Shown one piece after another: positions 1,843 through 50,865 of a stretch of DNA of 51,714 nt (the first letter of the stretch is position 1; each line of letters starts with the position of its first letter). The DNA comes from a bacterium (GTDB taxonomy: Bacteria; Patescibacteriota; Gracilibacteria; UM-FILTER-43-11). The translations under genes and the position numbers were made by a program. Under the pieces are notes generated by a model. It was not told the DNA's origin, searched no databases, and worked only from the letters and a program-made list of their open reading frames with translations. Location of the stretch: the NCBI GenBank assembly GCA_030427295.1, contig JAUHWS010000004.1:1-51714 (forward strand), read 5' to 3'.

Positions 1843-3111
1843 TTATTCAGCAGCACTCGGATCACCCATGTATCTAGAATTTGGTCTAAGTGGGGCAGGG
1901 GTTGGGGTAAATTTAGGTCCTGTTGGCATGTTTTGATCTACTTCTGGTAGTAGGTCATCTCTTGTTTGACTAGCAGATATTGATTCTAGATCTGGAAATG
2001 AGCGATGGTGCATGCTAGACATAATTCCTATTAATTTATTATCTGATTGAAATCGATCTTGACGATCCCATCGTTCAACATTGGCTTGCCACATTTCTTC
2101 ATATTCCCGACGCCTTCGCCTAGCTAATGCAATTAAAAATGCCGTGTAAGCTCCCAAAATCAGTGTTGTGCCCAAAGCTGCCTTTAGTTTATCTCGATTT
2201 TCTTGGGTTTGGTTGACCACAGATTCTGGAGCTTCTTCATCAAAGATCACATCAGGGTCATTTTCAGGATCTTCGATGAGAATCACTCCATCCGTATCGA
2301 TTTCTTCAACGTCCGGATCATGATCCGGATCAAGGGGGAGGATGGCATTTTCCCCCATCAGACTATCTACCGTCACCCGCATCGGCCCCCGATCTACAAT
2401 CGGCGCAGAAGGTGTTTGGGCGGTAAACCACTCATCTAAATCGATGTCAGCGGGTGCAGGAATATTCGGGGCAGGTTGTTCACTTGTTGAAATGTCAGGA
2501 TTGAATAAATCATCCAATTCATCCTCAGACATGGCCAATTCAATAGGTTCTGGTGTAGACGGAGGATTCTTAGAAGTGCTATCAGCATCCTTTTTACCAT
2601 CAGGTCTTTTTTTAGATGCTTTCTTAGCTGGCTTTTTATCCAGCTCCTGTTCCACTTTCTCCAAAGCTGCCAAAAAATCAGCGTCTTCTGCAATCGTTGA
2701 AGGGGTTATTTTATCTACCTTTGGAGCTTTTACTTGAGGAACAGGAATATTCATCGCATAAGCTCCCATTCCAATGGTTTTTGTTGGATGCGTTGGAGCA
2801 TTATTCACTGCTAAAGGGCCTTCATAAGCACGTCCAGAAGAAGGAGTACTAACTTCAGTTGCTTGGCTTAATTTATAGCCTAGTCCAGCATTAAATCCAT
2901 CAGTATTGCCTGTCTTTGTTTCAACGGTTGGAGCAGGGGGCTTGGCAGAAGCTTCTGAAGCGGCCCCAAAGGCAGCGGTACCCGCTAAAACACCAGCAAA
3001 CACCTTGCTGCGAAGCATTCTACTGGCACTTTCAGCAGCAGCATGTATGCCAGTTCTGGCTACTTCTCTTGCCCCGCTCGCTAATTTTCTCAGATGCTCA
3101 GACAATCTCAT
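1843..3111 (-). CDS. Hypothetical protein, acidic/low complexity with C-terminal TM segment
   Basis: 422-aa ORF; N-terminal hydrophobic FAGVLAGTAAFGAASEASA; C-terminal TM TTLILGAYTAFLIALARRRRREY. Confidence 0.75.
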   Translation of the reverse strand: MRLSEHLRKLASGAREVARTGIHAAAESASRMLRSKVFAGVLAGTAAFGAASEASAKPPAPTVETKTGNTDGFNAGLGYKLSQATEVSTPSSGRAYEGPLAVNNAPTHPTKTIGMGAYAMNIPVPQVKAPKVDKITPSTIAEDADFLAALEKVEQELDKKPAKKASKKRPDGKKDADSTSKNPPSTPEPIELAMSEDELDDLFNPDISTSEQPAPNIPAPADIDLDEWFTAQTPSAPIVDRGPMRVTVDSLMGENAILPLDPDHDPDVEEIDTDGVILIEDPENDPDVIFDEEAPESVVNQTQENRDKLKAALGTTLILGAYTAFLIALARRRRREYEEMWQANVERWDRQDRFQSDNKLIGIMSSMHHRSFPDLESISASQTRDDLLPEVDQNMPTGPKFTPTPAPLRPNSRYMGDPSAAE

Positions 3112-8760: not shown

Positions 8761-9003
8761 CAACTAGGGACTAAGGACTAAATTATTCGCAACTGATTTG
8801 TTAGCCATTCGTAAAACTATCCGTGAGACGATTCGTAAATCAACACGTAAAACAATTCGTAATTAAAAATTTGCAATTAATAAGCGATCAGCGACTAGCG
8901 CGTAGTGACTAGCCAAAATGAATCTTAAAATAAGGCTAAACGCTGTACGCTAATTGCTAAACGCTCTAAAAAATTCGTAATTAGTAATTAAAAACTCGTA
9001 ACT
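8759..9003. repeat. Heptamer arrays (GGACTAA, ATTCGTA, AGCGACT and CGCTAAA types)
   Basis: AGGACTA-ACAACTA-GGGACTA-AGGACTA; AGCGATC/AGCGACT/AGCGCGT/AGTGACT; CGCTNNN units; ATTCGTAATTAGTAATTA. Confidence 0.8.
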
Positions 9004-36690: not shown

Positions 36691-39294
36691 TCAGAGATTC
36701 GCCTGCGCGGCCGCAATCCTGGCCACTGGCACCCGGTACGGGGAACAGGACACATAATTCAATCCAGTGTTGTGAAAAAATTGAATCGAATCTGGGTCAC
36801 CTCCATGCTCGCCACACACCCCCATCTTCAAATCCGGAGTGGATTTTCGGGCGTTGACCGTGCACTGACGAACGAGCTCACCCACCCCTTTCGTGTCGAT
36901 GCTCACAAACGGATCACGTCTTAAAATGCCTTGTTCCAAGTAGTCAGGAATGAATTTACCAGCATCATCTCGGCTGTAGCCATAGGTCATTTGGGTCAAA
37001 TCATTCGTTCCAAAACTGAAGAAATCGGCTTCTTTAGCAATGTCCTTGGCCCGAAGACAAGCACGAGGAATTTCAATCATGGTCCCCACTTTGTATTTTA
37101 CAGTTGCTTTTTGTTCTTCCAAAATCTGTTCGGCCACTCGCTTGATGTCTTTGCTAATGATTCTGAATTCGTCCAGGGTTCCCACTAATGGAATCATGAT
37201 TTCAGGACTCACCTCCACCCCCTCTGCAGCCAAGTCACAGGCCGCATTCATGATGGCTCGGGTCTGCATTTCAGTGATTTCAGGGTAGGTAATCATCAGT
37301 CGGCAACCCCGGTGACCCAGCATGGGATTCACCTCCGTCAAGCCCACAATCACATCCTTGAGCTGCTCAAAACTCATGCCAGCCTTCTCAGCCAAAGTAG
37401 CGATGTCCGTGTCTTTGTGTGGCAAAAATTCATGGAGTGGGGGATCGAGCAGACGAACGGTGCATGGGTTTCCATTCATGGCTTTAAAAATCCCTCTAAA
37501 GTCTTCCGTTTGCATCACTTCCAATTTAGCTAGCGCCTTCACGCGTTCCTCCTTGCCGTTGGCCAAAATCATTTCTTGCATGGCAGGAATGCGATCGGCT
37601 TCGAAAAACATGTGCTCGGTGCGGCAGAGTCCAATGCCTTGGGCGCCAAAATTAAAAGCCGTACGAGCATCTTTGGGGGTGTCGGCGTTGGCTCGGACAA
37701 CGAGCTTAGAAAATTCATCCGCCCAGCCTAAAATCGTTTCAAAGTTCTCATCCAGCTCAGGTTGGATGGTCGGCACTTCTCCCAAAATCACTTCTCCGGT
37801 CGTTCCATTCAAGGTGAGTTGATCGCCAGCGCGAACCTCGGTGCCATCCTGCAAGACAAACTTTTCGGCTTTGGAGTTCACAACAATATCCGAGCATCCG
37901 GCAATACAACATTTATTCATTCCACGAGCGACCACGGCTGCATGAGAGGTCATCCCTCCCGTGGCAGTCAAAATCCCTTTGGCCGCATGCATCCCTTCGA
38001 TATCCTCAGGGCTAGTTTCTTTGCGGACCAAGATCACCGCTTCTCCTTTTTCGGCCATTTCGGCCGCGTCAGCACTCGAAAAGACCACTTTTCCGCTGGC
38101 AGCTCCCGGACTTGCGGGTAAGCCTTTGGCAATCACGGGTTTTCCGTGATCGGGCGCAATAGTAGGATGCAACAGTTGGTCGATTTGTTCTGGATCCAAT
38201 CGTTTGAGGGCTTCTTTTTTATCGATGAGCCCCTCCTCGACCATCTCTACCGCCATGCGAACCGCAGCACTGGCCGTGCGTTTTCCTCGTCGGGTCTGAA
38301 GCATATAAAGTTCGCCATTCTCGATGGTGAATTCCAAATCCTGCATGTCTTTATAATGGGCTTCGAGTTTTTGATAGATATCGACCAGCGTTTGATAGGC
38401 CTCGGGCATGACGGCTTCGAGTTTGTCGATGGATTCCGGTGTACGGATCCCCGCCACCACATCTTCCCCTTGAGCGTTCATCAAAAATTCTCCATAAAAA
38501 GCCCTCTCACCGGTGCTGGGATTTCGTGTGAAAGCCACCCCCGTTCCGGACGTCTCCCCCATGTTTCCAAACACCATGGATTGCACATTGACGGCCGTTC
38601 CTAAATCGTGAGGGATTTTGTGGATGCTGCGGTAGCTGATGGCGCGCGGGGTGTTCCACGAATCAAAAACAGCGTTGATGGCCATTTTCAATTGCACTTG
38701 CGGATCGTCGGGAAAAGGCTCACCCCGTTTTTGCTCGATATGCGTTTTATATTGATTCACAATTTCTTTCAAATCGTCCGCCGAAAGGTCGCTGTCATAT
38801 TTAGCATGAACCGCTTCTTTTTTGGTTTCCAAGATCTCTTCAAACGCCTCCATGTCCATGCCCAAAACCACATTCGAGAACATTTGAATGAACCGCCGGT
38901 AGGCATCCCAACCAAAACGTTCATTGTTGGTGCTGGCAATCAGACCTTGCAAAGTTTCTTCATTCAATCCCAAATTCAAAACGGTATCCATCATCCCCGG
39001 CATCGAAATTTTAGCTCCACTACGCACGGACACCAAAAGAGGGGAGGACTGGTCACCAAACCCCTTGTTCATCGCTTCTTCTAATTTTTTAAGGTTGGAT
39101 TCAACGGCTTCTTCCAATCCCTCTGGCCAGGCATTGCGATTCTCTAAATATTGATTACAAACCTCAGTCGTGATGGTAAACCCCGGAGGCACTTGAATCC
39201 CCAAGCGGGTCATTTCATTTAAATTGGCTCCTTTTCCTCCCAATAAATCGACATCTACCCTCGATCCCTCTCCAAAAAAATAAACAGGCTTCAT
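36691..39294 (-). CDS. ppdK: Pyruvate, phosphate dikinase
   Basis: VYFFGEGSRVDVDLLGGKGANLNEMTRLG; ILTATGGMTSHAAVVARGMNKCCIAGC; SFGTNDLTQMTYGYSRDD. Confidence 0.98.
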   Translation of the reverse strand: MKPVYFFGEGSRVDVDLLGGKGANLNEMTRLGIQVPPGFTITTEVCNQYLENRNAWPEGLEEAVESNLKKLEEAMNKGFGDQSSPLLVSVRSGAKISMPGMMDTVLNLGLNEETLQGLIASTNNERFGWDAYRRFIQMFSNVVLGMDMEAFEEILETKKEAVHAKYDSDLSADDLKEIVNQYKTHIEQKRGEPFPDDPQVQLKMAINAVFDSWNTPRAISYRSIHKIPHDLGTAVNVQSMVFGNMGETSGTGVAFTRNPSTGERAFYGEFLMNAQGEDVVAGIRTPESIDKLEAVMPEAYQTLVDIYQKLEAHYKDMQDLEFTIENGELYMLQTRRGKRTASAAVRMAVEMVEEGLIDKKEALKRLDPEQIDQLLHPTIAPDHGKPVIAKGLPASPGAASGKVVFSSADAAEMAEKGEAVILVRKETSPEDIEGMHAAKGILTATGGMTSHAAVVARGMNKCCIAGCSDIVVNSKAEKFVLQDGTEVRAGDQLTLNGTTGEVILGEVPTIQPELDENFETILGWADEFSKLVVRANADTPKDARTAFNFGAQGIGLCRTEHMFFEADRIPAMQEMILANGKEERVKALAKLEVMQTEDFRGIFKAMNGNPCTVRLLDPPLHEFLPHKDTDIATLAEKAGMSFEQLKDVIVGLTEVNPMLGHRGCRLMITYPEITEMQTRAIMNAACDLAAEGVEVSPEIMIPLVGTLDEFRIISKDIKRVAEQILEEQKATVKYKVGTMIEIPRACLRAKDIAKEADFFSFGTNDLTQMTYGYSRDDAGKFIPDYLEQGILRRDPFVSIDTKGVGELVRQCTVNARKSTPDLKMGVCGEHGGDPDSIQFFHNTGLNYVSCSPYRVPVARIAAAQANL

Positions 39295-39415: not shown

Positions 39416-39444
39416 TTGAATCCAAATTTAAAATGTGTTATAAT
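39416..39444 (+). promoter_or_regulatory. Sigma70-like promoter with extended -10
   Basis: TTGAAT (39416-39421), 17-nt spacer, TGT-TATAAT (-10 39439-39444). Confidence 0.6.
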
Positions 39445-39452
39445 GAAACGAA

Positions 39453-39655
39453 TAGTGTAACGAATAGCAGCGAATCGTTAAACGCATTGTCAACGAATGG
39501 TTAGTTAAAGTTCTACAAATCCATCCGTAAAACAATCCATAATTTAAGCGATTAGCAATTAGCGAGTAGCGATTAGCTAAAAACTCCATTTTAAAAAGCT
39601 AGGCGCTACACGCTAAACGCCATTCGCTCTAAAAATTAGTAATTCGTAATTAAGT
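39453..39655. repeat. Heptamer array in the leader of the 39659 gene
   Basis: AGCGATT-AGCAATT-AGCGAGT-AGCGATT-AGC; CGCTACA-CGCTAAA-CGCCATT-CGCT; ATTAGTA-ATTCGTA-ATTAA. Confidence 0.85.
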
Positions 39656-39658
39656 TAA

Positions 39659-39985
39659 ATGCCCGGCAACCCCTTCCAACAACGCTACGAAGCCACGATG
39701 GCGAAATATCATGCCTACTTTGAGCATGTGCGCGATGCTTTCAAGGCTCACTGTGAGGACATCAAACAAAAAACTTTGAAAAAATTGGAAGATATTTCCG
39801 AGGACGACACCGATGCCCGAAAGAAGATTTTGTTAGAGCAAAAAAAGGAACTCGATGAAACCTTAGCCGAACTCAAACAACTCCTCAATTACCAATCTTC
39901 CAAAATGCGCAAAGCACTTGAAGAGATCCGGCGAGAGCAAGAATCCCAGGAGTTTGATTTAGAAAATGAACTTGCAAGCCTTTAA
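39659..39985 (+). CDS. Small coiled-coil protein, hypothetical
   Basis: 108-aa ORF rich in K/E/Q heptads. Confidence 0.75.
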   Translation: MPGNPFQQRYEATMAKYHAYFEHVRDAFKAHCEDIKQKTLKKLEDISEDDTDARKKILLEQKKELDETLAELKQLLNYQSSKMRKALEEIRREQESQEFDLENELASL

Positions 39986-40000
39986 AATCTTTGGTATAAT
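39972..40000 (+). promoter_or_regulatory. Sigma70-like promoter with extended -10
   Basis: TTGCAA (39972-39977), 17-nt spacer, TGG-TATAAT (39995-40000). Confidence 0.65.
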
Positions 40001-40035
40001 TGAGAGATTCAATATCAAAAATAACAAAAAATAAA

Positions 40036-40374
40036 ATGCAAGAACGTGGACCAGAATACACACCCGAGCCAATTGATAAAGCAAGTGAAGTTCAAGAGAT
40101 TAGTGAGCTAAAAAGAGGGCAAGAAGCACTTAAGAAGAAGGTGGAAGAAAAACCAGAAAACAGACGCTTAATCGATCGCATTCGTGCTAAACGAGAGGCT
40201 AGACAAGCCCAAAGAGAAGCAGTTAAAGCAGCTAAAGAACAAGCGGAACTTGCAAAAGACATTGATTCTGTGACCGACGGACAATGGAATGTCATGGATC
40301 AAAGTGATCGAAATGCTCCCTTTGGTTACTCAAAAAAGCATTATGAAAGACGCGACGGGAAAGCTAAAAAATAA
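40036..40374 (+). CDS. Small highly charged hypothetical protein
   Basis: ATG at 40036: MQERGPEYTPEPIDKASEVQEISELKRGQEALKKKVEE; the track start at 40000 lies in the promoter. Confidence 0.72.
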   Translation: MQERGPEYTPEPIDKASEVQEISELKRGQEALKKKVEEKPENRRLIDRIRAKREARQAQREAVKAAKEQAELAKDIDSVTDGQWNVMDQSDRNAPFGYSKKHYERRDGKAKK

Positions 40375-40408
40375 TTAATAAAAAAATACACACTAACACT
40401 TTACGATC

Positions 40409-42415
40409 ATGCCAAAAGGAAGAGAAAAACCAAAAAGAAATGATGATAACATAAAGGATAAATTCCCTAAGGTGACGGAAATTCCACCAGAGCAGGTGGA
40501 TATGCGCGATTCAAGCACACCTGACTACAAACGCCGTGATCGTTTTGGGGAGGCGTTGAGTGATGCAGAAAGGGCTCATACAGAAGGTATGCTAACCCTA
40601 GAGAAATATGTGGAAGAAGAATCACTTGACCGAGTAAAATCAGCTAGAAAACAAAAGGAAATCGAACGAACTATTGGCGTCTACCGTCGTGAAAATAACC
40701 TGCATGTCTTGATTTCTGCACCTGACTCTCAATTCAAGAGTCCTGAAGAAGCTAAAATGGTAAAAGAACAAGCTTTTAAAGCCCTAGTTGAAATGGGAGA
40801 CAACGGTCGTGGAATGCTCTACCTACTAAAAGACAAAGGAGGTGAATATGGTCGACGTGCAGCTCAGGTAATCTCCGAGGAGGGCTATAAACGACCTGAT
40901 CCAAAAATTGAAGATGGTTATTACCCTGATTCAGCTGAAGAAAGAGCTGAAAGAATCAGAAAGGCAGAAGAATACAATGCGGAGCATGCTGATGACACTG
41001 TTGGTGATGACTTACTAGAATGGATGGGGGGACCATTGACAGATTTGCCTGATGAAAAACTGGCGCTTAAAGTAGCTGAGGGCGGTGAAGAAGGAGAAAT
41101 TGCGCAGCAAATTCTAGACAACCGTGAAGCAAGGCGAAACAAGCCAGGCGAGAAAGGTCAGTCAGAACGTGGGAAGTTGTTTGCTGATACAGTCGATAAA
41201 AAAACAGGTAAATCAAAGCGAGATAAGCTTGTAAGGACTGGAAAAGAAGGTGTAACAACGGTTGGGAAAGAAACAGAGCGATCGACTAAAGGAAAGTCTA
41301 AAAAACTAGATGAAGTCAAATTTGCCGCTGCTTCTGATGACGCCATTGAAATCAGGGATGCCGAAGAAATGGACCCATTGACCGGTATTGATGAGGAGGT
41401 AAAAGCTCCCAAAAAGAAAAAAGAAACAAGGGCTGAAAAACCAGCCAAGGAAAAGAGCAAAAAAGAGCGACCAGCTCGAGTGGCAAAAAGAAGTGCTGAA
41501 AAGGCATCAAAAGAACCCGTTGGCTATGAAGAATTTAAGGAGGCTGTCCTTGATGAGAGTCGACCGATGGAAGACAGAAAAGGTTATGTTGAAGAAATGG
41601 CACTCACAGGAGGCCCTGAGGCAAAAGATGTGTTGATAGCAGCCGTAGAAAGCGAAAATAAAGAAATTGGTGATTATGCCCAAGAACAATGGAGGGCAGC
41701 GCAAGAGGGTGAACTAGTCCAATGGCCTGGGGACATCGGTGAATCTGCTGGGAAAGAAGGTTTAGAAGATGGGCCAACCGTTCTGGCCTCTGCCGATGAA
41801 GCAACAGCGGAACGTCTTTACACTCCGTCTGACATGACACCAATGGATATGGATGAGGAAAACATGTCCATCCCGGATGAAACCACAGCTGAAAAGCCAA
41901 AAGAAGAAGTCAAAGAAAAGGAAGAGGCACCTAAAGTCGCTCAAGCTGAATCGAGTGACATTCCAGGGGTCGACCTCTACAACGAATTCATGGAAGGGTT
42001 TGAGCCCGCCAAGCAACCAGAAGCATCGACTGAGGAGGCTCCAGCTGGTGAGCCTATCGACTTAGAGGCACTTGCAGCTGCGGGTAAAAAAGGGCTTGAA
42101 TTTTTAGGGGGAGCGAATGAGGCGATTAGCATAATCAATGAAGGCAATTACTACCGCCTGCTTGAAGACCATTCAGATAAAATTCCAATGATGGTTGAAA
42201 AAGGGGTTGGTAAAGCATCAAAGATCACTGGTATGATCGATTACCTTGGAAGTCAAATGTGGGAAAATCCAAAGGCGCTACCTGTACTTGAAAAAATTGC
42301 TGCTACCGAAGGACTGAATACACGTTACAAAAACCCAGCAGAAAATTATGTTGCTGCTTACAAACGACGTGAGGAACTCGAAAAGCAGTATAGTGTGGAC
42401 GAAAGAAATTCTTAA
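40409..42415 (+). CDS. Large charged hypothetical protein with HEAT-like segments
   Basis: 668-aa ORF; KALVEMGDNGRGMLYLLKDKGGEYGRRAAQVI and GGPEAKDVLIAAVESENKEIGDYAQEQW look HEAT-like; remainder K/E-rich. Confidence 0.8.
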   Translation: MPKGREKPKRNDDNIKDKFPKVTEIPPEQVDMRDSSTPDYKRRDRFGEALSDAERAHTEGMLTLEKYVEEESLDRVKSARKQKEIERTIGVYRRENNLHVLISAPDSQFKSPEEAKMVKEQAFKALVEMGDNGRGMLYLLKDKGGEYGRRAAQVISEEGYKRPDPKIEDGYYPDSAEERAERIRKAEEYNAEHADDTVGDDLLEWMGGPLTDLPDEKLALKVAEGGEEGEIAQQILDNREARRNKPGEKGQSERGKLFADTVDKKTGKSKRDKLVRTGKEGVTTVGKETERSTKGKSKKLDEVKFAAASDDAIEIRDAEEMDPLTGIDEEVKAPKKKKETRAEKPAKEKSKKERPARVAKRSAEKASKEPVGYEEFKEAVLDESRPMEDRKGYVEEMALTGGPEAKDVLIAAVESENKEIGDYAQEQWRAAQEGELVQWPGDIGESAGKEGLEDGPTVLASADEATAERLYTPSDMTPMDMDEENMSIPDETTAEKPKEEVKEKEEAPKVAQAESSDIPGVDLYNEFMEGFEPAKQPEASTEEAPAGEPIDLEALAAAGKKGLEFLGGANEAISIINEGNYYRLLEDHSDKIPMMVEKGVGKASKITGMIDYLGSQMWENPKALPVLEKIAATEGLNTRYKNPAENYVAAYKRREELEKQYSVDERNS

Positions 42416-42434
42416 AAATAAATGTAATTCATTT

Positions 42435-42473
42435 CAAAACCTCTCTCCTTACATGCTAAGCAGGGAGGTTTTG
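42435..42473 (+). terminator. Hairpin terminator
   Basis: CAAAACCTCTCTCCTTACATGCTAAGCAGGGAGGTTTTG. Confidence 0.65.
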
Positions 42474-42497
42474 ATTCATTAGATAATATCAAAACCC

Positions 42498-43055
42498 ATG
42501 CCAGGACCAAAATCATTCGAAGGCAATCGAGGATTAGAAGACATTAAAAAGCCAGACAAAGGCCCACAAAAGCCAGCCTTTGGCGAACAATTGAATCAGA
42601 CCTTTAAAGGCGTCGAAAAAACAGAAGAAGCCTTGAAACAAGTCGAGCAAAAAGAAACTCCCACAGGCGACCAAGCCGATACCGGCAAGAAGCCAGCGAA
42701 GAAAGTCAAATACGGCAAAGTGCCCGAGCCCGAACGGCAAGCTAAAATGGATAAGGTTGAAGCTATTGTTCAAAAAGATGGCAAGCTGGATTTACAACAT
42801 TGGGCAAAATATGTCCTTACTGGTTCGGGTTTGGACAGTGGGCTTGGAGCACAGGTCATCAAATACCTTGGAAAACCAGACACAAACCTGGCAGACATCC
42901 AAAAAAAGAATCCAAACGCAGCCAAAGTCATTGCGTCTTACCAAGGCGCCGATGCTAAGTTTCCACGGGATGAAAAAGGAAGCATAACAGACATCGATGC
43001 TTGGGGCGAATCCACCAGTCAAGCCCTCGTGAAAGCCATCGTGGAGTATTCGTAA
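42498..43055 (+). CDS. Hypothetical protein
   Basis: 185-aa ORF; charged N-terminal half, more globular C-terminus. Confidence 0.75.
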   Translation: MPGPKSFEGNRGLEDIKKPDKGPQKPAFGEQLNQTFKGVEKTEEALKQVEQKETPTGDQADTGKKPAKKVKYGKVPEPERQAKMDKVEAIVQKDGKLDLQHWAKYVLTGSGLDSGLGAQVIKYLGKPDTNLADIQKKNPNAAKVIASYQGADAKFPRDEKGSITDIDAWGESTSQALVKAIVEYS

Positions 43056-43575
43056 GTATATACTCACCTTCGCCTCATCTATATACTGACCCTCTTCGAA
43101 ATACTGAGGGTCAATAACTCACTTTTTTCAATAAGCTGTTAGCTATTAGCTGTTAGATCGCTTTGCTTTTAGATGTTTTTCAGCCTAATAGCTAAGAATC
43201 TCGATGAAATCAAGATGGTCTAAAAGCTGACAGCTAGAATAAAGTATATACTCACCCCAACCCAAAGTATATACCTAAGTAATTATTGTCATTCCATGAC
43301 TTGATCATGGAATCGTTCGAATCCAGTCACTCCAAATACTGACGACTCTTGGATCAAGCCCAAGAGTGACAACTGTTTTCTCATTCCTCAATGAAGGCGA
43401 GGTTTGCAAGCCTCGCCTTCAGGGGTTGATTAAATACTTCCTAAGAACCACCCCCCTACCATCAACTCACATTCCAAATTCCTCCTCCTCATATGAGGGG
43501 GCCAAGGGAGTGAGGGGGCCAAGGGAGAGGCTTGAAATAGAACGAATGAAATCATTCTAAATCCACCTACAACAT
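43054..43575 (+). repeat. Composite modular repeat, copy D
   Basis: Starts at the stop codon (CGTAAGTATATACTC); TGACCCTC/GAGGGTCA hairpin; AGCTGTT heptamers; AAGTATATACTCACCCCAACCCAAAGTATATACC; GTCATTCCATGACTTGATCATGGAATCG; GAAGGCGAGGTTTGCAAGCCTCGCCTTC (43393-43420). Confidence 0.88.
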
Positions 43576-43597
43576 CAAGGTCAAAAAACTTGATTTT

Positions 43598-43606
43598 TGC
43601 TATAAT
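43598..43606 (+). promoter_or_regulatory. Extended -10 promoter element
   Basis: TTTGCTATAAT; no clear -35. Confidence 0.5.
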
Positions 43607-43658
43607 TTATGATAAAATAGTATATTGAAAAAAATCTAAAAAATAAACCCCAAAAAAA

Positions 43659-44120
43659 ATGAGCAAATTCGACAAACCAAAATCAGCTGAATCATATAGA
43701 GAAGCGGCCGATAAAAAGGAGGCCAATCTATCCTTTGACCAACAGGCAGAACTGAAGAAAGAAACTGAAGCCGTTTTTAAGGTGGCAGGTAGAGATCCTG
43801 AGCAGCCCCAAAAAGTTTATGACCCTGAGGCAGAAAGAATTACTAAGTCCTTAAAGGCTCGCAAAGGAATAGAGCTCGCAATAAAGGATGGTAACTTTGA
43901 TGCGATTGTTAAAGGTGTAAAAGAGCTCGATGTTCAAGGTAGAGTGAGTGACATTGACAACATTATCAATGCTTTAGGTGCATTAGGGTCCAAAGAACAA
44001 AATCCTGAAAAATATAAAGGTATTTTAGATACACTTGAGCGAATTCGAGCCTTAGGTGCGGGTAAAGAATATTTTGAGAATGCGGATAGGGCATTGGCTC
44101 AAGCAAGGGGGGTAAATTAG
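43659..44120 (+). CDS. Hypothetical charged helical protein
   Basis: 153-aa ORF; IELAIKDGNFDAIVKGVKELDVQGRVSDIDNIINALGAL resembles a segment of the 45246 product. Confidence 0.75.
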   Translation: MSKFDKPKSAESYREAADKKEANLSFDQQAELKKETEAVFKVAGRDPEQPQKVYDPEAERITKSLKARKGIELAIKDGNFDAIVKGVKELDVQGRVSDIDNIINALGALGSKEQNPEKYKGILDTLERIRALGAGKEYFENADRALAQARGVN

Positions 44121-44128
44121 TCTAATAT

Positions 44129-44440
44129 ATGGCCTCTAAAGACACCCTACAACAACTCTTCCAGGTCGCCAAAGCCTCGCTCTACTTCGAGGGTTCAACC
44201 GACGAAGAGATTTGGAGCGCCTGCCTGACCCAGCAAGATCGCTCGGATGAAGACATAAAAATCGCCATCCAAAACATATATGCTCAAGATAAGGCCATCT
44301 CAGAAGCCTCCGAACAAAAAAAGGCCAAACAGGAACAACAAAAAAAAGATCTCGACCTCATGCGTCAAAACGAAACCTCAGAACGCGAAGCGAACCATCA
44401 TGAAGCCGATTCGATGCTTGATGATTTTTTCAATCTGTGA
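44129..44440 (+). CDS. Small charged hypothetical protein
   Basis: 103-aa ORF, 8 nt after the preceding stop. Confidence 0.72.
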   Translation: MASKDTLQQLFQVAKASLYFEGSTDEEIWSACLTQQDRSDEDIKIAIQNIYAQDKAISEASEQKKAKQEQQKKDLDLMRQNETSEREANHHEADSMLDDFFNL

Positions 44441-44446
44441 TATAAT
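44418..44446 (+). promoter_or_regulatory. Sigma70-like promoter overlapping the end of the preceding CDS
   Basis: TTGATG (44418-44423), 17-nt spacer, TGA-TATAAT (44441-44446); this TGA is the stop codon of 44129..44440. Confidence 0.65.
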
Positions 44447-44472
44447 AAAACGATAAAAATAAAAAAAATATC

Positions 44473-45027
44473 ATGCCAAAAGAAATACCAAATCATCTAG
44501 AAGCATTGGCTGAAAAGGCAAAAGAAACACAAAAAAAAATCGATGCTGTGATGCCACCCAAAGCGGAAAAGATGAGTAATGGAATCGATATGTCAGAAGA
44601 CATCTTTGAGAAAGAAGATGTTGAGCGTGTTATAGAAGAATACAAGCAGGATGGATACGAGCACGTGAATTCAAAAAAACATCAAAAAGAGATTTTGATG
44701 GCAAAGCGCGCTCTTGGAGAAGCACCTAAGTCGGGGGCGGTTGCCACTGTGGAAGGTGAAACGCACCAGTACAAAGTAAAATACGTTGGCAAGGGAAGGT
44801 GGCTGGTTTTTAAAGGGGAGGCTTTAGAAGTTCAAGACGATACTGGAATGGCTGAGGTCAAAGAAGCCCTTGGTGAAGACTTTATCACCGTAAAAGGGAA
44901 TATGGCTAAAAGAGTGAAGCTCCAATTTGACGCCTCTGAGTTGAATAGTGGCAATGTACTCACCATTGAAGGCCCTGATGGAAAAACCTATGCCGTTTAT
45001 AAAAAGAAAGTCTACCGCGAAAGCTAA
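44473..45027 (+). CDS. Hypothetical charged protein
   Basis: 184-aa ORF; globular C-terminal part HQYKVKYVGKGRWLVFKGEALEVQDDTG. Confidence 0.75.
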   Translation: MPKEIPNHLEALAEKAKETQKKIDAVMPPKAEKMSNGIDMSEDIFEKEDVERVIEEYKQDGYEHVNSKKHQKEILMAKRALGEAPKSGAVATVEGETHQYKVKYVGKGRWLVFKGEALEVQDDTGMAEVKEALGEDFITVKGNMAKRVKLQFDASELNSGNVLTIEGPDGKTYAVYKKKVYRES

Positions 45028-45109
45028 TTTTGAAAGGACTATTTTTAAAAGGACTGTGGACTAAGAACTAAGTGTTAACAATCCGAATCCTATTCGCACC
45101 CGATCCGCA

Positions 45110-45240
45110 GCCCATTTGTCATCTATAAGCGACTAGCGGCTAGTGACTAGCGATAGGATTAAACGCTACACGCTACACGCTAATCGCTAAACGCTACACG
45201 CTCAACGCTCAAATAAATTCGTAATTAGTAACTCGTAATT
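45110..45240. repeat. Heptamer array in the leader of the 45246 gene
   Basis: AGCGACT-AGCGGCT-AGTGACT-AGCGATA then CGCTACA-CGCTACA-CGCTAAT-CGCTAAA-CGCTACA-CGCTCAA-CGCT then ATTCGTA-ATTAGTA-ACTCGTA-ATTAA. Confidence 0.9.
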
Positions 45241-45245
45241 AAATC

Positions 45246-46475
45246 ATGCCACCACGAGGAGAATTCAAACCACCATCCATTCTAGAAGCTGAGCCAGAGT
45301 CTATCACGCAATCACCTGAGCCGGAGGAGAAGGTCAGTGATACGGACACCCCTCAAGATTTAGAGAGCCAGGCTGAAGAGGCCTTTGATGTAGAAATTGA
45401 TCGGGAAGCTTATGCTGGAATCGTCCGAGGAGAGCTGGAAGGAGGGAATGCCGGAGGAATCGTAAAAACGATTGAAGAGCTCATTGAACAAGGGGGGCGT
45501 CAAGCGCACATCGACATCATCATGGAAACCCTGCGTGCCGAAGTGGATCAAGACATGGGTCATGCTGAAGAGGCTCAAAGAGGGCTAGATTTGATCGCTG
45601 AGCGAGGATTGACCGTTGAGAATGAATTGGCAGAAGGGGATTTAAGAGACCCACTTACGGATAGTCTAATGGAAGGAGATTTTACCGATCTTAAAGAAAA
45701 AATTCGTTCTCTCCCAGACCGCCGAAAGTCAGAAGTAATCAAGGTTTTAAAAACACTTGCTGAAAAAAGTAGTAATCAACGTCTCCAGGACACCGCAGGC
45801 CACGTGCTTGATTTGGTACAGGAGGCTGATGCTCAAGCAGCTGAAGAAGATGAAATAGTCATGTTGGACGATGATGATCTTCCCATTGAGCAAGCATCTG
45901 AGGAGATCGACACCAAAGCAGCCGCCCAGAAGGGGATTAAGGCCACGGATGAAATGTTTGACCAGTGGCAAGAAGAAGTTAACGCCGAAAAGGCCAGAAA
46001 ATTGGCCCAAAGAAGAGCCGAAAAGAAGGCTGAAAGAGCCAAAAGAGAAGCCGAGCGCCAACGCATCGAGCAAGAACTAACTGGTAGGACAGAAACAGGA
46101 GAAGCCTATGCCTACCAGGATCCTGACATTGCAAGTGATGTGGCTGGCGTCATGACCGGACCTGATGTTGAGCCCGTCAAAGCACCAGAAACCCCCGAAA
46201 CTCCCGAGGTAGAAACCAAGGTTGCCACCAGTTTGACAGGTGATCCAGCGCTTGATGAATTATTTTTCTCTGATTCATCGACAGAGCAACCAGAATCACC
46301 AACTCCTGATCAGCCCTTCGGCGAAGCTAAAGAGGCTACGAAAGAAGAGAAGGCGAAAATTGCTCAGCAAATTAAAGAGCAAGAAGCAGCCAAAAGAAAA
46401 GCGCGAGAAGATCGTATCAAACGCGAGGGGACAGAAGTAGTAGAAACCAATGATCCGCTCGCAGGCATTTCATAA
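45246..46475 (+). CDS. Hypothetical charged helical protein
   Basis: 409-aa ORF with K/E/A-rich coiled coil. Confidence 0.78.
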   Translation: MPPRGEFKPPSILEAEPESITQSPEPEEKVSDTDTPQDLESQAEEAFDVEIDREAYAGIVRGELEGGNAGGIVKTIEELIEQGGRQAHIDIIMETLRAEVDQDMGHAEEAQRGLDLIAERGLTVENELAEGDLRDPLTDSLMEGDFTDLKEKIRSLPDRRKSEVIKVLKTLAEKSSNQRLQDTAGHVLDLVQEADAQAAEEDEIVMLDDDDLPIEQASEEIDTKAAAQKGIKATDEMFDQWQEEVNAEKARKLAQRRAEKKAERAKREAERQRIEQELTGRTETGEAYAYQDPDIASDVAGVMTGPDVEPVKAPETPETPEVETKVATSLTGDPALDELFFSDSSTEQPESPTPDQPFGEAKEATKEEKAKIAQQIKEQEAAKRKAREDRIKREGTEVVETNDPLAGIS

Positions 46476-46492
46476 ACTAATCATCCACAAAA

Positions 46493-46843
46493 ATGAGTAA
46501 CGGAAAACTCAATCAATTAGGACCCAAGCCCCAAGAAGATCAGCCCAATGAAAATTTAGATCAGCTGATCACACCCTCTAAGCAGCTTGATCAACCAGCT
46601 AATGTAGAGAGGCTGTTTGAAGACGCTGAAAACGAAGGGGTCAAGACGGCAGAAGATTTCATTGCCCAGGCGGAAAATCAAGGGATTGGGAAAAATGGTA
46701 ATACACCTGATTTTGAAGGTCCCAAAGCAGACGTACCCAACGGCCAGGCTCGAGAAAAAAATGAATTTCTCCCAGATAGCGAAGAAAAACCCATTGGGCC
46801 CATGCCCGCCAATGACGATGAAAGTGGCGAGGAGCTCGGCTAG
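46493..46843 (+). CDS. Small hydrophilic hypothetical protein
   Basis: 116-aa ORF, 17 nt after the previous stop; Q/N/E-rich. Confidence 0.65.
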   Translation: MSNGKLNQLGPKPQEDQPNENLDQLITPSKQLDQPANVERLFEDAENEGVKTAEDFIAQAENQGIGKNGNTPDFEGPKADVPNGQAREKNEFLPDSEEKPIGPMPANDDESGEELG

Positions 46844-47145
46844 AACTCAAAAAACCGCTCCTTAAAACCGACAATTTTGCCCTGCTTCACCTCAATGCCA
46901 TCCGCCTTGAGTCGACGGATTTTTTCTGTGTCTCCTAAAGCAAAACCGCCCAAGCGCCCATCGGCATTCACCACCTTGTAACAAGGAAATTGCTCCGGGT
47001 GAGGGTTTTTATTCAGCAGTTGACCCACAAAGCGATACCCCTTGGTTCCCATCGCGTGGGCAATGGCCTTGTAGGTGGTCACCTTACCCGGTGGAATTTG
47101 AAGAAGAAGCGCATGCAGCCGCTCCATGTTTGCATTGGAGTTCAT
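46840..47145 (-). CDS. MGMT-family DNA-binding domain protein (alkyltransferase-like)
   Basis: LLLQIPPGKVTTYKAIAHAMGTKGYRFVGQLLNKNPHPEQFPCYKVVNADGRLGGFALGDTEKIRRLKADGIEV. Confidence 0.9.
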   Translation of the reverse strand: MNSNANMERLHALLLQIPPGKVTTYKAIAHAMGTKGYRFVGQLLNKNPHPEQFPCYKVVNADGRLGGFALGDTEKIRRLKADGIEVKQGKIVGFKERFFEF

Positions 47146-47221: not shown

Positions 47222-47400
47222 GGGTAAGGACTATCGACTATGGACTAGGGGCTAAGTGTTTCTCAATTCGCATCCCATTCGCATCCCATTCGTCATTGAT
47301 AAGCAACCAGCGAATAGCTAAAATAAGGCTAAACGCTACACGCTAAACACTACACGCTCTAAAATTAGTAATTCGTAACTAGTAATTAGTAATTAAAAAA
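47222..47400. repeat. Heptamer arrays upstream of the ATPase gene
   Basis: AGGACTA-TCGACTA-TGGACTA-GGGGCTA; CGCTACA-CGCTAAA; ATTCGTA-ACTAGTA-ATTAGTA-ATTAAAA. Confidence 0.88.
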
Positions 47401-50295
47401 ACTGTTCTGCTAGAATTTCTCATTGTCATTATCGGAGCCTTGGCCATTGGCGCTTTACTGCTCAAGCGCATGCGCGATCAAGCCAATCTCAACCGTAGTT
47501 TGAACATGGTTTTTTTAAGAATCTCGGTGCCCCTCAAGGATTCCAAAGAAGACAAAGAACGAGATTCCGAGCAATACGGAGCTCAAAGTACTCAAAAAGA
47601 AGTCAACGATGTGATGACGCACTTTTTTGAAGCCTTACATTCCATTTACAACGGTGAGGTGGTCAACTTCTTCAAGGGGGAAGACTTTTTCTCCTGCGAA
47701 TACGTCATTCTCGAAGGCCAACTCCAGTTCTTTTTAGTGATGCCGTCTCATCTCAAATCGCTCTTTGACAAGCAAATCACCGCCTTTTATCCTGATGTAT
47801 TTGTCGAGCAAGTCGAAGATTTCAGCATCTTCCGTCAAGGCTACAAAGCCACAGGGCGCTACGTTCACTTGTCCAAGTCCTATATATATCCCTTTCGGAC
47901 CTACCAATTTTTGGGCTCCGATCCATTCAATAACCTGGCCAACGCTCTATCCAAAATCGAATTAGACGAAGGGGCCGCCGTCCAACTGATGCTGCGACCC
48001 GTCAAAAATGGGTGGCAAGAAAAGGGGCGTAGTGCTGCCAATGAGCTCTTTTCGGGCAAGAAAAAGAAAAAATCATTTTGGAGTTACATCAATATTTTTG
48101 CCTGGATAGGCAATGCCTTTCGCATCCTCATGCAAGGCGCCGAAAATGAAAAATTTGGAGCCGATGCGCAGCAAACTGAACGCACCACACCTCTGATGGA
48201 TGAACAGGTAAAAATGATGGAAGGAAAAAATGTCAAAGTGGGGTTTCAAGCCGTCATTCGAGTGGTCGCCTCCGCCAAAAACATGTACCGAGCCAATCAG
48301 ATTGTGGGCGAAATCATCAGTTCTTTTGCCCAGTACAATGACCCCAACAACAACAGTTTTGCTAAATCTAAGCGCTTCAGTCGCAATAGCTTACTCAAAG
48401 GATTCATTTTAAGGGACATGCGCAAGGGCTGGATTCAACAACTCTTCAAGCCAGCTCGCAAAATGATCTTGAGCTCCGAAGAAGCCGCCTCGATTTTTCA
48501 CTTCCCCAACATCAAATACAATCGAAGCCCTGTCATCAAGTGGCAAGAATTTAAGATTGCCGGGGCACCCAAAAACCTTCCCACCGAAGGAATCTTTTTG
48601 GGCAACAATAACTACCGAGGAGAGACCCGGAAAGTGCACATTAAAGTGGACGATCGGCGTCGACATTTCTACATCATTGGGAAGTCGGGAACGGGGAAAT
48701 CTACCCTCCTTAAAACCATGCTCAAGCAAGATGCTCAAAAAGGGCATGGAATGTGTTTGATCGATCCACATGGCGATTTGGTGGAAGGGATCCTGCCACA
48801 TGTTCCACGGGACCGCGCGGATGACGTGGTGATTTTTGACCCAGGAGACCTGGGCCGACCGATGGGGATGAATATTTTGGAGGCCTACAGTACCGATGAG
48901 AAAGAATTCATGGCTCAAGAAGCCTTGGCAATTTTCATTAAGCTCTTTGGGGAAGAAATCATGGGACCGCGTCTGCAACACTACTTCCGAAACGGATGTT
49001 TGACCTTGATGGAAGATGATGAGGAAGGGGCAACCCTCATCGACTTGCCACGTCTATTTACGGATGAATCCTGGCAGCGCTACAAATCTAACAAGGTTAA
49101 AAATCCAGTCGTCAAAGCCTTCTGGGAAAAGGAAATGGCCAACACCGGTCAACGCGAAAAACAGGAGATGATCCCGTACTTCAGTTCTAAATTCGGCCCC
49201 TTCATCACCAATGCCCAAATCCGGAATATCATTGGACAAACCAAATCTGGATTCGACTTCCGCAAAATCATGGATGAAGGACGCGTGCTACTCTGCAACC
49301 TTTCGAAGGGTAAATTGGGAGATTTGAACGCCCAGCTTTTGGGGATGATCTTGGTCTCCAAGCTCCAAATGAGTGCGATGAGTCGGGTGGACACCGAAGA
49401 AGAAGAGCGTCGTGACTTCTACATGTATGTGGATGAATTCCAAAATTTCGTGACCGAATCCTTCGCATCCATTTTGTCTGAGGCTCGTAAATATCGCTTG
49501 AATTTGATCATCGCTCACCAATATATCTCTCAGATCACCAAGTTGGCCGGAGGGAAGGGGAAGCAAGAAGACACCACGATTCGCGATGCGGTTTTCGGGA
49601 ATGTGGGGTCCATGATGTGTTTTAAGATCGGTGCTTCTGATGCGGAGTATATTGCTAAAGAATTTGCGCCCGTCTTCAGTGAGCAGGACCTGGTGAACAT
49701 TGCCAATTACCAGGCCTACATCAAGCTCAATATAGACAATGCCACCAGCCGGGCCTTCTCGATGGCCACCACCTACGACCCAGATAAGGGGGATCCACAA
49801 GCGGCTGAAGCCTTTAAGCAACTTTCACGCTTGAAATTTGCTCGCGAAAAAGACTTTGTCGAGCGCGAAATTTTCAGGCGAGTGGGTGCAGCCAACAAAA
49901 AACCCGATTTTGGGAAGCCACCCGCAACGCCTGCCCCAGCCACCTCGGCACCAGCCGTTGCTTCGGCAGTCACTCCTCCTTTACCCGGCACAGCGCAACC
50001 GACAACAGCACCTACCCAAGCACAAGCTCCAATGCCAGGACAAATGCCAGCCGCTCAAGCCCCACAAGCCCCACAAGCTCCTCAGCCTGCCCCCGCGCCT
50101 GCACCGATGCCAGGAGTACCTCCTCAAACCCCAGTGCAACCCCCTGTTACACCCCCTCCAGCTCAACAAACCCCCTATCAAGCACCAACCCAGCCTGGTG
50201 TGCAGCCTACATCTTACCCACCCACTCAGCCCCCTCAAACCCAAGTTCCTCCAGCTACGCCCACACCGCCTCAGTCGCAGCCACCTCTTGGTTAA
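47392..50295 (+). CDS. HerA/VirD4-like (type IV secretion/conjugation-type) membrane-anchored ATPase with Pro-rich C-terminus
   Basis: FYIIGKSGTGKSTLLKTMLKQD Walker A, GMCLIDPHGDLVEGIL Walker B-like, DFYMYVDEFQNFVTESFASILSEARKYRLNLIIAHQY. The frame opens upstream of the track start (47440) and encodes IKKTVLLEFLIVIIGALAIGALLLKR (TM), so the start is probably upstream. Confidence 0.9.
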   Translation: MKKTVLLEFLIVIIGALAIGALLLKRMRDQANLNRSLNMVFLRISVPLKDSKEDKERDSEQYGAQSTQKEVNDVMTHFFEALHSIYNGEVVNFFKGEDFFSCEYVILEGQLQFFLVMPSHLKSLFDKQITAFYPDVFVEQVEDFSIFRQGYKATGRYVHLSKSYIYPFRTYQFLGSDPFNNLANALSKIELDEGAAVQLMLRPVKNGWQEKGRSAANELFSGKKKKKSFWSYINIFAWIGNAFRILMQGAENEKFGADAQQTERTTPLMDEQVKMMEGKNVKVGFQAVIRVVASAKNMYRANQIVGEIISSFAQYNDPNNNSFAKSKRFSRNSLLKGFILRDMRKGWIQQLFKPARKMILSSEEAASIFHFPNIKYNRSPVIKWQEFKIAGAPKNLPTEGIFLGNNNYRGETRKVHIKVDDRRRHFYIIGKSGTGKSTLLKTMLKQDAQKGHGMCLIDPHGDLVEGILPHVPRDRADDVVIFDPGDLGRPMGMNILEAYSTDEKEFMAQEALAIFIKLFGEEIMGPRLQHYFRNGCLTLMEDDEEGATLIDLPRLFTDESWQRYKSNKVKNPVVKAFWEKEMANTGQREKQEMIPYFSSKFGPFITNAQIRNIIGQTKSGFDFRKIMDEGRVLLCNLSKGKLGDLNAQLLGMILVSKLQMSAMSRVDTEEEERRDFYMYVDEFQNFVTESFASILSEARKYRLNLIIAHQYISQITKLAGGKGKQEDTTIRDAVFGNVGSMMCFKIGASDAEYIAKEFAPVFSEQDLVNIANYQAYIKLNIDNATSRAFSMATTYDPDKGDPQAAEAFKQLSRLKFAREKDFVEREIFRRVGAANKKPDFGKPPATPAPATSAPAVASAVTPPLPGTAQPTTAPTQAQAPMPGQMPAAQAPQAPQAPQPAPAPAPMPGVPPQTPVQPPVTPPPAQQTPYQAPTQPGVQPTSYPPTQPPQTQVPPATPTPPQSQPPLG

Positions 50296-50442: not shown

Positions 50443-50865
50443 AGTATATACTCACCCTCTCCCCAACTATATACCTAACCTCTGTAAAATGCTGAGGTTC
50501 ATCTCGATGCCTTTTTCAATAAGCGACTAGCGACTAGCGAATAGCGATTAGCTAAAATAGATCTTAGAATAGAGCTAAACGCTATACGCTAAACGCTACA
50601 CACTCAAAAAATAAATTCGTAATTAGTCACTCGTAATTCGTAACTAAGAATAAAGTATATACCCACCTCAACCCAAAGTATATACCTAAGTGTACAGTTG
50701 TCACTCTAGGACGAAACGGAGAGGAGATCCTAGAATCGTCTGAATCCAGAGGCTCCAAATACAGACGACTCTTGGATCAAGCTCCTAGGGGGACCCTTTG
50801 GGTTCCAAGGGTGACAAGCAACCTCTCATTCCTCAAAGAAGGCGAGGTCTCGAGACCTCGCCTTC
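50443..50865 (+). repeat. Composite modular repeat, copy E
   Basis: AGTATATACTCACCCTCTCCCCAACTATATACC; AACCTC/GAGGTT hairpin 50477-50499; AGCGACT heptamers; AAAGTATATACCCACCTCAACCCAAAGTATATACC; palindromes; GAAGGCGAGGTCTCGAGACCTCGCCTTC (50838-50865). Confidence 0.88.

Follow-up and report, generated by a model that had tools for sequence, protein, structure and literature searches.

A conserved gene for a predicted helical hairpin at the head of a variable run of charged proteins in Candidatus Peregrinibacteria

The window, a 51,714-nt stretch of contig JAUHWS010000004.1, comes from a 1.48-Mb genome (98 contigs) of Candidatus Peregrinibacteria. Between positions 39659 and 46843 it carries nine coding ORFs, all on the + strand, bounded by a pyruvate phosphate dikinase (PPDK)-like gene (36691-39294, - strand) and an MGMT-like gene. 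The features of the run and its downstream edge are as follows.

39659..39985, +, P108, the lead gene, a predicted 108-aa helical hairpin with helices 5-44 and 51-107 (conservation and structure model)
40036..40374, +, orphan charged protein, 112 aa (ORF, family searches, coding score)
40409..42415, +, orphan charged protein, 668 aa, GC3 0.34, with sub-threshold HEAT similarity (family searches, coding score)
42434..42474, +, 18-nt inverted repeat (89%) between 40409 and 42498 (repeat search)
42498..43055, +, orphan charged protein, 185 aa, with a distant same-slot counterpart in the sister species (L047:1985-2509)
43659..44120, +, charged protein with one copy of a DGNF..IVK..EL..GR..DI unit (unit alignment)
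44129..44440, +, P103, three-helix head and long helix, C-terminal LDDFFNL (orthologues, structure model)
44473..45027, +, 184-aa protein paired with P103 (neighbourhood comparison)
45246..46475, +, acidic 409-aa protein with one clear and one marginal copy of the 43659 unit and an internal LDELFF
46493..46843, +, acidic low-complexity 116-aa protein
46840..47145, -, MGMT-like DNA-binding-domain protein, far edge of the variable slot (Pfam)
47407..50295, +, VirD4/HerA-like ATPase, N-terminal membrane helix, Walker A GKSGTGKS (Pfam, hydropathy, TrwB comparison)

All nine ORFs lie where the preliminary description had placed them, and each scored high for codon usage in its own frame, with scores near zero or negative in the two other frames, so the co-oriented genes are real; for 40036 an ATG start was preferred over the TTG at 40000. 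The charged fraction of the encoded proteins ranged from 0.31 to 0.44. A composition class of at least 30% charged and at most 28% hydrophobic residues held 8 of the 9 run ORFs compared with 4 of 208 ORFs drawn from a 240-kb sample of the same genome, which upholds the highly charged composition first reported; 44473 was the sole ORF outside the class, by a small margin. Neither a membrane helix nor a signal peptide was found in the charged proteins of the run, which are almost without cysteine, and the GC3 of several genes (0.27-0.34) lies at the low end of the genome. A further charged, low-hydrophobicity protein is encoded at the contig end (50892-51695, - strand), convergent with the ATPase gene.

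No ORF of the run had a match above cut-off in Pfam or NCBIfam, and a sequence search of solved structures (PDB) with the two profiles tried returned nothing above cut-off, in agreement with the earlier statement that the proteins belong to no recognisable family. Searches of the charged ORFs against PHROGs, phage and plasmid records and PADLOC gave no meaningful match, and the viral, phage and plasmid collections searched with 45246 and 40409 gave no match; an origin as prophage, plasmid or defence island was rejected on these results.

The members of the run are not alike: only the lead gene is conserved, and the other genes are mostly confined to the genus or species. For 40409 no relative was found in 19 related genomes, and the HEAT-like units once ascribed to it scored 13.5 bits against PF13646 (cut-off 27.7); a HEAT-repeat scaffold was rejected on this score. 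The inverted repeat behind this gene may mark the end of a transcription unit. A search of 58 relatives gave no relative of 45246, and none convincing was found for 43659, whose weak matches in G007 (E 0.04, inside an ORF that reads as a secretion-ATPase-like protein) and G006 (E 0.6) were treated as chance. The sister species encodes a similar protein in the 46493 slot, its homology not demonstrable. The helical unit said to be shared by 43659 and 45246 was genuine in its first copy, whose Smith-Waterman score was reached by 0 of 300 local-composition shuffles; the second copy in 45246 was only marginal (9 of 300), as was the G001 counterpart (4 of 300). A profile search did not find the unit outside the genus; G000 and G001 did match, but their rows had gone into the profile, which makes those matches circular and leaves only the absence elsewhere as informative. 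The unit is a genus-level feature.

A short acidic motif, LDDLF or LDELFF, recurs in several proteins of these loci and might be a shared binding motif. It was found in 3 of 256 sampled ORFs of the same genome, all three within the window. Its sites are given below, first in the window and then in the loci of relatives.

44129..44440, +, C-terminus of P103
45246..46475, +, residue 336
1843-3111, -, residue 199
Relatives: L047:3229; L132:8705; L133:1656; L134:2382 and 4014

Relatives of P108 were identified in 16 of the 18 genomes of its own family and in two genomes (G058 and G122) of family f20 of the same class; among 287 genomes drawn across the phylum it occurred in two, the window's own and G058. 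Named relatives come from metagenome-assembled genomes of Candidatus Peregrinibacteria and other Patescibacteria. Between the two species of the genus P108 is 70% identical, with dN 0.21 and saturated dS, and it is under purifying selection while the adjoining genes turn over. The AlphaFold model is a long helical hairpin with a pLDDT of 89. Foldseek returned no match to it with E below 1, and CFP10-ESAT6 was among the weak fold matches (E 2.8). The engineered protein 4rzp matched at E 4.6e-5 overall but over no individually significant stretch, and we attribute this to chance similarity of coiled coils.

P103 has orthologues in 4 other genomes of the family. Its structure model has a confident three-helix head with a long helix, again with no Foldseek match of E below 1. 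A relative of 44473 follows P103 in G001 and G017. The pair lies directly behind a second paralogue of the ATPase in G001 and behind a membrane-protein gene in G015 and G017, and from these differing contexts it follows that the pair has changed place. The slot itself is empty in G015 and G017, which have no charged gene beside P108, and holds different genes in G001. Conservation of the neighbourhood, which the preliminary description had named as its own test, was therefore mixed: one gene and the slot are kept, whereas the remaining genes turn over.

Much of this pattern would also arise at an orphan-gene hot spot, in which insertions are tolerated between PPDK/P108 and the MGMT-like gene and unrelated young or transferred genes without a joint function collect there, their shared composition reflecting recent origin. 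The slot contents just described, the lack of any relative for most of the genes, the low GC3 of several of them and the occurrence of the P103/44473 pair at other sites are all consistent with such a hot spot; the composition, far from the genome average, argues against it.

The regulatory regions gave a divided result for the good promoters that had been proposed. Sigma-70-like sites numbered 15 in total compared with 11.7 ± 3.2 expected, which is chance level; sites with TG before the -10 element lie just upstream of 39659, 40036, 43659 and 44473, and the first of these is conserved in the sister species. The P108 promoter of most genera has a TATAAT element and a 17-base spacer and usually stands about 40-60 bases ahead of the start codon, compared with 243 bases in the window, where a composite heptamer-like repeat lies in the gap.

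39416..39444, +, P108 promoter TTGAAT-17-TATAAT with TG before -10 (in an 87-bp block 76% identical in the sister species)
39544..39655, +, composite heptamer-type repeat between the promoter and the 39659 start (repeat comparison)
39638-39652, 45213-45241, 47367-47395, 8851-8990, 33037 and 50611-50646, period-7 repeats TTAGTAA/TTCGTAA, CGCTACA/CGCTAAA and CGATTAG

Related repeat blocks end just before 45246 and, more loosely, before the ATPase gene. Near-identical 17-mers of the repeat occur 17 times in the genome, and 9 of these stop 2-12 bases short of an ATG that reads in the same direction; the genes that follow include apparent CTP synthase, adenylate kinase and adenylosuccinate lyase genes. 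Since the repeat also precedes such housekeeping-like genes, the data suggest that 39659 and 45246 are treated as ordinary chromosomal genes. Other heptamer-like arrays precede P108 in some sister genera.

The ATPase gene downstream of the run was examined as a possible partner. Its product matched PF10412 (TrwB_AAD_bind, 35.4 bits, cut-off 20.5) and PF02534 (T4SS-DNA_transf, 30.6 bits, cut-off 20.1) and aligned with TrwB at E 1.5e-5; the Walker A motif lies at residue 430 of the extended ORF, and hydropathy peaks at 2.8 within 30 residues of the extended start, marking a membrane anchor. Positions 47392-47440 hold no ATG, GTG or TTG start before the membrane helix, and translation probably begins at CTG 47407, where the sister species has TTG. 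A match to mad8 we read as reflecting the P-loop domain only. In some families of the class (G028, G048, G056 and others) the ATPase frames contain many in-frame TGA codons, as expected of genetic code 25 (Gracilibacteria). In family f8 (L050-L052) a VirD4-like ATPase follows a small membrane protein resembling FtsL, from which a link of this ATPase with cell division is possible.

Each of the 58 relatives searched encodes the ATPase, usually more than once and with differing gene neighbours, whereas most of the charged run genes are absent outside the genus. P108 itself occupies several chromosomal contexts (gene names are from Pfam for the window and from sequence reading for the other genomes). 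In the first, found in genera g1, g8, g9 and g12, it lies with Asp/Glu racemase, SAM synthetase, PPDK, MGMT and ATPase genes, and in g7 it adjoins only the racemase and SAM synthetase genes of this set. In the second (g2, g3, g4 and g10) it lies with L27 and riboflavin-synthesis genes and no such ATPase is close by. In f20 it stands between apparent glmS and pyruvate kinase genes, with no charged gene there. Because the ATPase is class-wide and multicopy and its neighbours depend on lineage, its position beside the run says little about joint function.

These results bear on the proposal that the run encodes type IV secretion-like substrates with the 47407 product as coupling ATPase, in line with the preliminary description. 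The four genera of the first context and the position of P103 behind the second paralogue in G001 speak for it, as does a survey of Patescibacteria that counted 5,713 VirD4 homologues, of which only 148 lay close to virB4 (PMC12102498). Against it, P108 and the leader-bearing proteins described below lie away from any such ATPase in most other genera, and the ATPase occurs throughout the class with no charged genes beside it; we consider the proposal improbable. As a general rule an eight-gene system coupled to the ATPase was rejected because the pairing is limited to four genera; the part of the claim that stands is an undescribed, lineage-specific cluster of charged proteins.

In most sister genera P108 adjoins other charged proteins, which differ by genus and have a common N-terminal segment, MKxLF...ENRLVFAGGE (for example MKELFNKLSNLFSFGKEHRLVNEG and MKNLFKNFIDLLFNKRFAFFAGGE). 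Charged proteins are the products of the next co-oriented genes at ten P108 loci, and almost all of them have this leader. A leader profile searched against 20 whole genomes gave 16 matches with E<1e-5. Of these, 15 were no more than about 7 kb from P108, and they fell into two unrelated chromosomal contexts; the seeds had been drawn from P108 loci, so that the profile favours similar leaders, but the search was open to leaders elsewhere. In G003 two copies of P108 are separated by about 61 kb; a leader protein of its own is encoded directly behind each, and each paralogue tracks its own leader type. Distances between P108 proteins and between leaders were correlated across 12 pairs (Mantel r 0.83, permutation p 2e-4); shared descent contributes to this correlation and is still contained in it, and would by itself yield correlated distances. 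Random accumulation at a hot spot would not predict that leader proteins track P108 across genera and two contexts, though we rate that explanation as nearly as probable as the one preferred below. The leader-profile search gave no convincing match in either genome of the window genus, which appears to have a leaderless version of the P108 arrangement.

Our tentative interpretation, to which we give a probability of about 0.35, is that a single conserved gene heads a hypervariable slot, and that P108, its product, is a dedicated chaperone or adaptor for lineage-specific clients. As a small soluble hairpin, P108 would bind fast-evolving charged proteins from the adjoining genes; these clients would be soluble and largely helical or disordered, and in the sister genera their amphipathic N-terminal leader would be recognised by P108 or by machinery that P108 feeds. 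The clients might then reach the cell surface or be exported towards a host cell. A chaperone or adaptor role accounts for a constant partner with changing neighbours, for the N-terminal segment that the sister-genus proteins share and for the duplication of P108 together with a leader gene in G003. It is weakened by the leaderless clients of the window genus and by the P108 loci in g9 and f20 that have no client; since the window clients carry no leader, P108 and client are paired there only by position.

The proteins could instead be cytosolic, hydrophilin-like scaffold or stress-protection proteins, with P108 and P103 as coiled-coil organisers and no export. High charge, the near absence of cysteine, the lack of membrane segments and signal peptides in these proteins and the long helices of both conserved members accord with this, whereas complete turnover between genera and a common N-terminal leader are not required of such proteins, and we think it unlikely. 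A bolder form of the chaperone/adaptor reading, which we also hold to be unlikely, is that P108 and the MKxLF...RLVFAGGE leader constitute a new Peregrinibacteria protein-targeting system, in which the hairpin would recognise the leader as a signal on hypervariable proteins and pass them to a route of export or surface display that acts on host cells. Peregrinibacteria are uncultured and probably host-dependent CPR bacteria. If a conserved adaptor-like gene points, in each genome, to the most variable soluble proteins beside it, sequence alone would give a handle on candidate interaction proteins in a group where family searches return nothing.

Comparison with known systems places these components only in part. 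The ATPase resembles VirD4 and TrwB in its Walker A motif, its N-terminal membrane helix and its two Pfam domains above cut-off; it differs in having several paralogues per genome. No relaxase or VirB4 was seen among the part of the window's genes scanned with Pfam, and in Patescibacteria only a minority of VirD4 homologues lie near virB4. The WXG100/LXG partners of type VII secretion are helical hairpins of about 100 aa encoded beside variable proteins, and P108 is like them in predicted fold, size and neighbours. P108 is unlike them in its longer second helix, in the absence of the W-x-G turn (the window protein has no tryptophan, and WxG is absent from a 20-sequence alignment) and in that no EssC-type gene was seen beside it. 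In VirE1-VirE2-type and type III secretion chaperone-effector pairs, a small helical protein is encoded directly upstream of a larger variable client, and the clients share an N-terminal region. P108 showed no sequence relation to these chaperones, and its candidate clients have no recognised effector domains; by position, P108 is like them in being encoded directly beside a candidate client in most genera.
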